Below the pieces are notes generated by a model. It did not search any database and was not told the origin of the DNA. It saw nothing but the letters and a program-made list of their open reading frames with translations. A program made the position numbers and the translations under genes. Below are positions 18,120-21,754 of a stretch of DNA of 64,000 bases, in pieces. Origin of the DNA: Pseudomonas petrae (lineage in GTDB: Bacteria > Pseudomonadota > Gammaproteobacteria > Pseudomonadales > Pseudomonadaceae); contig NZ_JAKJXE010000006.1 in the NCBI RefSeq assembly GCF_021728295.1, positions 310,001 through 374,000 of the forward strand, in the 5' to 3' direction. Each line of letters opens with the position of its first letter. Position 1 is the stretch's first letter.

Positions 18120-18254
18120 TCGCGTGTTCCTCTCTCGGGCGCTCCGGTCAGTAACCGGTTACGCAGGTCAGCATTGCGCTGATTGTCGCAAGCCATGAAC
18201 CTAGGACAACGCCGTCAGCGAATGTCTCCGGATTCATCGGCATGCGCCGAGGAT

Positions 18255-18881
18255 TTACTCGTCAGGGGTGTTCCTGGCTTCTACATTGCCTTCGGCATTG
18301 GCCGCGACGGCCAGCTTCTCTTCTCGGGCGATACGTGCGTTTTTGATGCGCCGGCGGACCCACAGCAGCACACCGATCACCAATAATGCGCCCAGAACCC
18401 ACAGCTCGTATTTCTTGACGTTGCCCAGCAGGCCTTCAAGCACCGAACCGAACTTGTACGCCGCTGCGCCCAGCGCTGCCGCCCATACTGCTGCGCCGAT
18501 ACCGTTGAGCAACAGATAGCGCCCTGGTGGATAACCGGACAGGCCGATAGCAACCGGCATGACCGTGCGCAAGCCGTAAACAAAACGGAAGCTCAGCACC
18601 CAGATGTCGGGGTGGCGCCGGATATGCTCCAGTGCACGGTCGCCCATCAACTGCCAGCGAGGCTTGCGTGCCAAGAGCTTGCGGCCATGCTTGCGTCCCA
18701 TGAAATACCAGAGCTGGTCGCCTGCGTAGCTGCCGAAGAAGGCAACGACCACGACCAGATTGATATCCATGTATCCGCGGAACGCAAGAAAGCCGGCAAG
18801 CACCAGAATGGTCTCGCCTTCAAAAAAGGTCCCGAGGAAAAGGGCGAAGTAGCCAAATTCTTGTAAAAAATGCTGGAGCAT
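18255..18881 (-). CDS. DedA family membrane protein
   Basis: A 208-residue inner-membrane protein of the DedA family, whose members recycle lipid carriers or flip lipids and support the proton motive force. Landmarks are LGTFFEGETILVLAGFLA at residues 16-33, FFGSYAGDQLWYFMGRKHG, and RFVYGLRTVMPVAIGLS; the FEGE and RxxxGxR elements are the conserved charged positions. The C-terminal 30 residues are charged and cytoplasmic. It is divergent from ppk across a 650-bp gap. Confidence 0.92.
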   Translation of the reverse strand: MLQHFLQEFGYFALFLGTFFEGETILVLAGFLAFRGYMDINLVVVVAFFGSYAGDQLWYFMGRKHGRKLLARKPRWQLMGDRALEHIRRHPDIWVLSFRFVYGLRTVMPVAIGLSGYPPGRYLLLNGIGAAVWAAALGAAAYKFGSVLEGLLGNVKKYELWVLGALLVIGVLLWVRRRIKNARIAREEKLAVAANAEGNVEARNTPDE

Positions 18882-19531
18882 TATTTGGGTGCTGGCGAAA
18901 TGAACGCGCAGCCTAACGCGCCCAAGTCATTCAGGAAAGTATGCAAATGTGTCACCGCGTTAAAGTTTCCTACGTTCGGGAGCGATTATTCGCTTGGAGA
19001 GGGGGTTTGTATCGCACACCTTACGTCGCAATTACACCTGTCACGCGAGTGTCATAATCGCCGCTTATAAATGTCACGCTTGCCCGCTTGGATGGGCTGG
19101 GAGCATTCCGTGCGCGTTGCCCTCATCTGCGAAGTTCAGCGTGCCAGTCCAATGGACTGCACCGATTCGTCCCCAACACTCGCTTTTAAGAGCCCGCTGT
19201 CGCCGCCGTTACCGTTCTCCTCGCGTGTTCCCGGACCCGAAATCCTGCTCGCGGGCGCAGGCAACCTCAGCGTGTTTGCAGATCAGGGGTTGCACGGCAC
19301 GGAAAAATCCGTAGCGTGGAGAGTCAAACCGCTCACCGCATCTCGCCTGACGCCGGCCGCCCCGCCGCACAATATCGAGTCAGGCTGCAAACATCTTCAG
19401 AACTGCCACGCCCTGGGCGTGACCGTTGTTCCGCGCTGTACGTCACCACTGTTGTGGCGCAAGCGGCATTCCGACATCGGCCGTATGCGCGGCCCAACTG
19501 TTACAAGGCCAATTGCCTTACAGGATTATTC
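18882..19531. other. 650-bp gap before ppk with PhoB promoter and long leader
   Basis: This gap contains a PhoB box at 19038-19055 and then about 450 bases before the ppk start. In P. aeruginosa hemB lies directly upstream of ppk; no hemB or remnant is visible here. A frame from 19071 to 19535 stays open but is not recognisable. Base composition from 19080 onward resembles coding DNA only in part. Confidence 0.6.
19038..19055 (+). promoter_or_regulatory. PhoB box upstream of ppk
   Basis: CTGTCAC-GCGA-GTGTCAT is two 7-bp PhoB half-sites with an 11-bp period, matching the consensus CTGTCAT-N4-CTGTCAT at 12 of 14 fixed positions. A third half-site ATGTCAC at 19071 is in register, 22 bp further. 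A -10-like TATAAA at 19066-19071 lies about ten bases after the box, the standard PhoB promoter geometry. Orientation is toward ppk. Confidence 0.8.
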
Positions 19532-19535
19532 ATGA
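19071..19535 (+). other. Doubtful 154-codon leader frame before ppk
   Basis: An open frame without recognisable motifs, rich in Ser, Pro and Cys, ends by overlapping the ppk start as ATGA. Its first ATG lies on the predicted promoter, so translation from there is unlikely; an in-frame ATG at 19092 is possible. I list it because the overlap would couple it to ppk if it were translated. More likely it is untranslated leader. Confidence 0.2.
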
Positions 19536-21754
19536 GCACCGAAGGATCTATCGAAGCCGCAGTCGAGCTTGACCCTCAGCCCGTCAATCAGGAAGTCACT
19601 CCTGTGGTCGAGCCGACCATTGAAGTGGTCCCCGCGCTGGAACCGCATCATCCACCCCCGCATGTCATCGCGGTGCCCAATCTGGATGACAGCAGTCTTT
19701 ATATCCATCGCGAGCTGTCGCAGCTGCAGTTCAACATTCGCGTGTTGGAGCAGGCGCTGGACGAGTCCTATCCGTTGCTCGAGCGGCTCAAGTTCCTGCT
19801 GATTTTCTCCAGCAACCTCGACGAATTCTTCGAAATCCGCGTCGCCGGTCTCAAGAAGCAAATCACCTTTGCTCGCGAACAGGCCGGCGCTGATGGCCTC
19901 CAGCCTCACCAAGCTCTGGCGCGCATCAGCGAGCTGGTGCACGGCCACGTGGATCGCCAGTACGCCATCCTCAACGACATCCTGTTGCCGGAGCTGGAAA
20001 AGCACCAGGTGCGCTTCATTCGCCGTCGCAACTGGAACGCCAAGATAAAGGCCTGGGTGCGCCGTTATTTCCGTGACGAGATCGCGCCGATCATCACGCC
20101 GATCGGTCTGGACCCGACGCACCCGTTCCCGCTGCTGGTGAACAAGTCGCTGAACTTCATCGTTGAGCTGGAAGGTATCGACGCTTTCGGCCGCGACTCG
20201 GGTCTGGCGATCATCCCTGCCCCGCGCCTGTTGCCGCGTATCATCAAGGTGCCGGAAGACGTGGGCGGCCCAGGCGACAATTATGTATTCCTGTCGTCGA
20301 TGATCCACGCCCACGCCGATGACCTGTTCCAGGGCATGAAGGTCAAAGGCTGCTATCAGTTCCGTCTGACCCGTAACGCCGACCTGGCCCTCGACTCCGA
20401 AGACGTCGAAGACCTTGCCCGCGCGCTGCGTGGCGAGCTGTTCTCGCGTCGTTACGGCGACGCAGTGCGTCTGGAAGTAGCAGACACCTGCCCGAAACAG
20501 CTGTCGGACTACCTGCTCAAGCAGTTCAATCTGAGCGAGAGCGAGCTGTATCAGGTCAATGGCCCTGTGAACCTGACGCGGCTGTTCAGCATCACTGGCC
20601 TGGACAGTCACCCCGAGCTGCAGTACATGCCGTTCACTCCGGCGATTCCGAAGCTGCTGCAGAACAGCGAAAACATTTTCAACGTGATCAGCAAGCAGGA
20701 CATTCTGCTGCTGCACCCGTTCGAGTCCTTCACCCCGGTCGTCGATCTGCTGCGCCAGGCGGCGAAAGACCCTCATGTGCTGGCCGTGCGCCAGACGCTG
20801 TACCGCAGCGGTGCCAATTCGGAAATTGTCGACGCGCTGGTGGACGCCGCGCGCAACGGCAAGGAAGTGACCGCCGTTATCGAGCTTCGTGCGCGTTTTG
20901 ACGAAGAGTCGAACCTTCAACTGGCCAGCCGCCTGCAAGCGGCCGGTGCCGTGGTGATCTACGGCGTAGTCGGTTACAAGACCCACGCCAAGATGATGCT
21001 GATCCTGCGCCGTGAAGCTGGCGAGATCGTCCGTTACGCGCATTTGGGTACGGGCAACTATCACGCCGGCAACGCGCGTCTCTATACCGACTACAGCCTG
21101 CTGACATCGGACGATGCGCTGTGCGAAGACGTCGGCAAACTGTTCAGTCAGTTGATCGGTATGGGTAAGACGCTGCGCATGAAGAAGCTGCTGCACGCGC
21201 CGTTCACCTTGAAGAAAGGCATGCTGGACATGATTGCCCGGGAGACGCAGTTCGCGTCCGAGGGCAAGCCTGCGCACATCATCGCCAAGTTCAACTCGCT
21301 GACCGACCCGAAGATCATTCGCGCGCTGTACAAGGCCAGTCAGACCGGGGTCAAGATCGACCTCGTCGTGCGCGGCATGTGCTGCCTGCGCCCTGGCGTG
21401 CCGGGTGTGTCCCACAACATTCAGGTGCGCTCGATCATCGGCCGCTTCCTTGAGCACACGCGGGTGTTCTACTTCCTTAATGGCGGTGACGAGCAGATGT
21501 TCCTGTCCAGTGCCGACTGGATGGAGCGCAACCTCGACAAGCGCGTCGAGACTTGCTTCCCGGTGGAAGGCAAGAAGCTGATCTTGCGTGTGAAGAAAGA
21601 GCTGGAAGGGTACTTGACCGACAACACCCATAGCTGGCTGCTGCAGCCGGACGGGCGCTATATCCGCAGCACCCCGACCGGCAACCAGAACCCCCGCAAT
21701 GTGCAGGCGAGTCTGTTGGAAAAACTCAGCAACCCGGTCCTCAGCGTACGTTGA
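19532..21754 (+). CDS. ppk1: Polyphosphate kinase 1
   Basis: Ppk1 makes polyphosphate from ATP reversibly. The 740 residues follow the PPK1 plan: N-terminal helical domain with [13 protein letters not shown] and [16 protein letters not shown], a head domain, and two phospholipase-D-like domains carrying the catalytic histidines in YKTHAKMML and [19 protein letters not shown]. About 55 extra residues precede the usual start of the fold and are acidic/Pro-rich. ATG 19532 has AGGA 6 bases upstream; the frame is open further back to 19316 but without a ribosome site. Its last codons overlap the convergent ppx by 14 bp. Confidence 0.96.

Follow-up and report, generated by a model that had tools for sequence, protein, structure and literature searches.

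The window analyzed here is a 64,000-nt stretch of the Pseudomonas petrae genome, in which a polyphosphate kinase gene (identified as ppk1 via TIGR03705, with its ATG at 19532) is preceded by a divergently oriented DedA-like gene, hereafter dedA, and by a long intergenic region containing a Pho-box-like promoter (Table 1). The earlier note on this DNA had described a PhoB-type arrangement of CTGTCAC-GCGA-GTGTCAT followed by TATAAA at the appropriate distance, a third half-site in register, and a leader of about 450 nt. All of these elements are found exactly as described: the three half-sites start at 19038, 19049 and 19071, and a putative transcription start near 19078 leaves about 454 nt up to the ppk ATG.

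Table 1. Features of the dedA-ppk region (window coordinates)
Feature	Coordinates	Strand	Basis or remark
VTT-domain (DedA-like) gene	18255..18881	-	Divergent neighbor; synteny anchor; under NCBIfam DedA cut-off
Pho-box-like half-site pair CTGTCAC-GCGA-GTGTCAT	19038..19055	+	Occupies the -35 place
Predicted -10 element TATAAA	19066..19071	+	10 bp past the 18-bp box
Third half-site ATGTCAC	19071..19077	+	+33 from the first half-site
Former hemB 5' UTR, retaining traces of a hairpin and a ribosome site	19078..19109	+	nhmmer, profile 1-60
hemB scar	19110..19531	+	nhmmer and tblastn; holds the ppk ribosome-binding site
Open frame, relic GTG to TGA overlapping the ppk ATG (ATGA)	19110..19535	+	Possibly kept open
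ppk, polyphosphate kinase 1	19532..21754	+	Family matches

The 18-mer pattern of the half-site pair has a single zero-mismatch match in the window; with up to three mismatches the count rises to 8 against 4.74 expected by chance, so that the loose pattern is uninformative. Across the 5.85-Mb genome, TGTCAY-N5-TGTCAY occurs 8 times, versus once for the reversed control. Among the seven further genomic sites, one precedes a GDPD-family gene (L161, around 1501), another lies between genes read as pstS and pstC, another precedes a gene without a known link to the Pho regulon, and the other four are on the minus strand. A joint pattern of box and hexamer, which required T at the last place of the hexamer, returned one site in the genome, other than that of ppk. 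Scoring with a weight matrix derived from 23 pstS and 23 phoB promoters from this genome and its relatives (two promoter families only, with pstS named by our own reading and phoB by TIGR02154) placed the site upstream of ppk first among 127,966 window 18-mers, with 16.8 bits against 14.1 for the runner-up.

In P. aeruginosa the PhoB motif is reported as a pair of (T)GTCAT boxes 5 nt apart (PMC4513871). The site upstream of ppk comprises two 7-nt direct repeats that follow each other at a period of 11 bp and resemble (T)GTCAT-N5-(T)GTCAT, with the predicted -10 element about 10 bp downstream and no -35 element. It shares with the pstS and phoB promoters of the genus a 7+4+7 pair of half-sites standing where a -35 element would be, and with pstS promoters a hexamer 10 bp further on (in pstS, TAGAGT in 19 of 23) and a TCA at +33. 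In pstS promoters as many as four half-sites succeed one another every 11 bp, running through and beyond the hexamer, as in L169 (CTTTCAT, TTGTCAT, CGGTCAT and TGGTCAC).

Repeated absence of hemB upstream of ppk

A DNA search of 57 genomes with the region yielded matches in 36, all within the genus. In the majority of them the match falls into two pieces, one for the promoter side and one for the ppk side, about 0.6 kb wider apart than in the window (e.g. G002). The intervening sequence is an operon-type hemB. Such a gene, 67-99% identical to the query, stands at this place in 69 of 80 named loci (the best 80 of 588, with L086 ending at a contig edge); where the ppk match starts at residue 1, hemB mostly stops about 20 nt before ppk. 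Among 298 genomes drawn from the genus, 51 showed a weak match or none to operon-type hemB and were followed up. Three of them gave no ppk, two (L137 and L158) carry pieces of hemB where their contigs break off, and 46, that of the window included, show a dedA-ppk gap without hemB, with a 26-residue relic retained in L118. At least 46 of the 298 genomes thus lack operon-type hemB before ppk, the dedA-ppk gap having been checked in the 51 only.

A ppk tree with 140 rows, 42 of them hemB-less, requires at least seven changes in the presence of hemB, three of which are forced by starred branches; the tree counts changes of presence and does not distinguish gain from loss. Relics show that hemB was lost by decay in the window clade as well as in L133, L132, L127, L117, L116 and L121. 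In the nhmmer profile search L134 gave only a weak relic (E 0.049) and L140 none, so that the case for loss by decay does not extend to these two. The window clade (10 rows) is a single starred group, placed in an unresolved fork with hemB-carrying rows, P. viridiflava, P. cerasi and P. tremae among them. The leader varies from about 40 to 460 nt across the hemB-less genomes compared, with 455-459 nt in L112, L115 and L123, 326-336 nt in L113, L114, L230 and L231, and 137-154 nt in L119, L122 and L125. In putida-type genomes the hexamer lies 46 or 47 nt from ppk and the promoter nearly abuts the last hemB codons. There (L138, L139, L141-L157, L159, L135, L068-L070, L072-L074) a deletion has fused the promoter (GTCATAATGG...GCTTAT) to those codons, and all putida-type rows have TATCTT or TATCGT in place of TATAAC.

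To search the window for hemB remnants we used an nhmmer profile built from the promoter-to-ppk stretch of 12 hemB-carrying loci (three of the 15 intended loci had no TATAAC match and are absent). This revealed three fragments colinear with the profile: model positions 1-60 at 19066-19124 (E 1.8e-5), 386-435 at 19413-19462 (E 1.1e-3) and 1002-1077 at 19464-19533 (E 1.9e-7). The hemB C-terminus is also matched in the leader by tblastn (E 0.003). The scar accordingly comprises a relic GTG start at 19110, a decayed body, the fragment at 19413-19462 and the hemB 3' end from 19464. Because hemB is absent from the window and three colinear hemB fragments lie in its place, at the syntenic position and without an open hemB, the ~450-nt leader of ppk is, on this comparison, the scar of a decayed hemB that once stood between promoter and ppk.

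Pseudogene scars are known from operons in which a gene was lost while a paralogue backed it up. The present case resembles them in the decayed hemB lying between a promoter and its downstream gene and in the persistence of a second hemB; it differs in that the absence recurs at one locus and that the promoter half-sites are still recognizable. The genome of the window holds one other hemB elsewhere, 44% identical, free of stops and assigned to the ALAD family. This remaining copy (L031:1507-2481, contig C2) has the cysteine motif DTCFCEYTDHGHCG, which we take to be the zinc-type signature, and the operon-type hemB has DVALDPFTTHGQDG. Zinc and non-zinc HemB paralogues have been described in P. 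putida (PMC2770081), and the window clade could rely on zinc-type HemB.

Promoter letters with and without hemB

Allowing up to 8 mismatches in 29, the promoter motif was found in 80 of 97 hemB-carrying loci; of the 17 misses, 11 carry a name other than Pseudomonas and one is truncated where its contig stops. Across 57 distinct hemB-carrying sequences, the first half-site keeps G in 55 and T and A in all 57. The second half-site keeps GTCAT at 56-57 of 57 and is followed by AAT in every sequence, and GTCATAAT is present at 56-57 of 57 per place. The T that would precede this GTCAT in a full half-site is found in none of the 57 (C 29, G 22, A 6). TATAA is kept in 55-57, and the third half-site has T in 55, G in 57, T in 49, C in 51 and A in 47. 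No -35 element is conserved at 16-18 bp in these sequences. Their matrix scores have a median of 13.8 and range from -3.9 to 21.2, with 39 of 57 at 10 or above. Relative to pstS and phoB promoters, the hemB-carrying promoters thus differ in that the second half-site never has its first T, in the greater invariance of GTCATAAT and TATAACTG, and in having hemB as the first gene.

The comparison of hemB-less loci covered 59, namely 27 of the putida type and 32 others. Automatic site choice gave shifted sites in L119, L122, L125, L135 and L140. Boxes in the 32 were picked by eye with a nearby TATAA required, and the 27 putida-type rows were set apart. Both half-sites are recognizable in the 32, with TATAA[AC] 10 bp on, the nearby TATAA being a condition of selection. 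In 15 spread rows, hand-chosen and preselected for box and TATAA, mean information is 1.70 bits in the first half-site, 1.23 in the second, 1.85 in the -10 element and 1.01 in the third half-site, against 0.22 upstream, 0.65 in the spacer, 0.59 in the 10-bp gap and 0.49 downstream. The second half-site reads TGTCA[CT] in 7 of the 32 non-putida rows (L112, L114, L230 and L231; L134, L136 and L140), as against a first T in 0 of 57 hemB-carrying sequences, and in two hemB-less lineages the box has thus moved nearer to the consensus. Fragi-type rows have TTGTCAT (GTGTCAT in L121) plus TGTTCAT.

The same comparison bears on the choice of -10 element. A generic sigma-70 scan prefers ATTACA-16-CATAAT at 19031-19058. 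As hemB-less clades that have lost CATAAT retain TATAA, CATAAT is disfavored and TATAAA is the better candidate.

Candidate PhoB control of ppk

These comparisons support the earlier note's reading of a PhoB-type promoter before ppk. We consider it probable that this is the promoter that precedes hemB and ppk in most relatives, is activated by PhoB, and now drives ppk alone after the decay of hemB, whose scar forms the leader. The two genes would once have shared a transcript, and hemB decay would have left their promoter with ppk as its only target. PhoB~P would most likely bind at 19038-19055 as a head-to-tail dimer replacing the -35 element, and recruit sigma-70 polymerase to TATAAA at 19066-19071; low phosphate would then raise ppk transcription above a basal level. 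The genome encodes one PhoB above the family cut-off, which would be the protein concerned, and PhoB control of ppk is likely as judged from the DNA. Heme synthesis needs hemB, and a promoter that depends purely on starvation is therefore unlikely.

The published record touches this proposal at several points. Starvation is reviewed as inducing PpK for phosphate storage in most bacteria (PMC4415409). In its main text, the PhoB ChIP-seq study mentions neither ppk nor hemB; it describes quadripartite PhoB/TctD promoters in which a TctD motif lies within a further 22 nt of the PhoB box (PMC4513871). Our literature search found no direct study of the hemB-ppk promoter and nothing pairing PA5242 with PA5243, and the polyphosphate kinase reported in the portion of PMC9769906 consulted is only PA0141, a different one. 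By contrast, PPK of P. putida BIRD-1 is listed as unaffected by PhoBR, with log2 values of 1.34 in the wild type and 0.89 in the mutant (PMC5082522, Table 2). This proteome counts against PhoB control in P. putida, for which the comparison covers putida-type rows rather than the BIRD-1 promoter itself. The box of putida-type rows is mostly weak, at 4.8 bits in most of them (18.2 in L157, 14.6 in L148 and 12.4 in L159).

PhoBR independence in BIRD-1 would also fit a promoter of another kind. No hemB-carrying sequence has the T that opens the second TGTCAT, while GTCATAAT is nearly invariant, so that another constraint may act on these letters: GTCATAAT-N7-TATAAC could be the site of a different OmpR-family regulator, or a constitutive promoter, with the perfect Pho box of the window having drifted on top of it. 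The variation between L113 (CGTCAT) and L112 (TGTCAT), both among the window's closest kin, agrees with such drift. Against this, L134, L136, L140 and the fragi-type rows have lost GTCATAAT and kept TGTCAT-type repeats, or TTGTCAT plus TGTTCAT, together with the 10-bp spacing; no -35 element is conserved at 16-18 bp; and the window site is the one ranked first by the pstS/phoB matrix. We regard this explanation as rather unlikely and favor activation by PhoB.

The third half-site had been proposed to limit output, with PhoB bound there contacting the -10 element. Its register, its retention in hemB-carrying sequences and its information content in hemB-less rows, above that of the downstream flank, speak for such a role. 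A special repressor function is made less likely by the pstS promoters, 20 of 23 of which have TCA at the same +33 offset (10 of 23 also have it at +22), and several hemB-less clades have dropped the site: it is absent from fragi-type rows, L134, L136, L140 and L114, and was removed by the putida-type deletions. A repressing third site thus seems quite improbable, and the half-site may instead serve as an accessory PhoB contact.

The leader and the meaning of the scar

An open reading frame at 19071-19535 was rejected as a gene, its ATG preceding the predicted transcript start, with no Pfam or NCBIfam match and no third-position bias. Differences at the three codon positions are 12/7/11, 17/18/19 and 27/27/22, compared with 4/2/19, 3/2/22 and 4/4/22 in ppk, and give no sign of protein selection in the leader frame. 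In nine of the ten clade genomes the leader is free of stops in the frame whose TGA overlaps the ppk ATG, and the frames have 11, 1 and 13 distinct stop columns, the single one belonging to this ATGA frame (nominal P 5e-4, for a frame chosen post hoc and with ancestry uncorrected). By shuffling within each genome, an open frame is expected with a chance of 3.6-8.0% in L112-L115 and L123, and 12 of 14 controls, taken from other hemB-less clades, carry stops in the corresponding frame. Within the first 60 nt, in-frame starts are GTG in L112, L115, L123 and L125, ATG in L113, L230, L231 and L112, and TTG in L119; none was found there in L114 or L122. Selection might have kept this hemB-relic frame open, irrespective of the peptide, so that ribosomes entering close to the former hemB start read on through the leader up to the ATGA; this would couple the translation of leader and ppk or shield the transcript from Rho-dependent termination, a possibility that we hold to be unlikely.

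Conservation along the region was compared with L115 and L123, in which identity is 81-84% in the promoter, 87-90% in the 5' UTR, 53% in the relic body and 89-96% in the hemB tail with the ribosome site, and dedA and ppk stand at 84-85% and 82-84%. The closest kin are less telling for the relic body, at 87% in L113 (130 gap columns) and 81% in L114 (82 gap columns); their promoters are 88% and 95% identical, respectively, the tail matches at 53/53, and the 5' UTR is 77% identical in L113 and unaligned in L114. In hemB-carrying relatives a short GC hairpin lies just past the predicted start (e.g. L020, about 283-315).

The earlier note had also suggested that the leader could add a second layer of control, as a regulatory RNA or riboswitch; this is highly improbable, for the leader, long and GC-rich as it is, folds no more stably than its shuffles (z = 0.19, 56 of 100 as stable), an Rfam search of 18200-20200 gave one match, far short of its threshold (15.6 bits where 50 are required), on the minus strand and outside the leader, the relic body is less conserved than dedA and ppk, leader length differs widely between losses, and the hairpin at the 5' end in hemB-carrying relatives, present in all 50 distinct 21-base stretches folded, has a 4-bp stem that also forms in 710 of 1000 letter shuffles.

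The locus is ordinary in kind, with a probable PhoB promoter whose odd part is well explained by the hemB scar. An unusually long leader is thereby accounted for without a new regulator, which cautions against taking such scars for control RNAs. The repeated absence of hemB amounts to a natural experiment that sets apart what hemB requires of the promoter from what ppk requires, and the letters left after that absence, even sharpened in two lineages, resemble a Pho box. The strong box predicts stronger control in the window clade, and across the genus heme synthesis and polyphosphate would be tied to one probable phosphate-responsive promoter.
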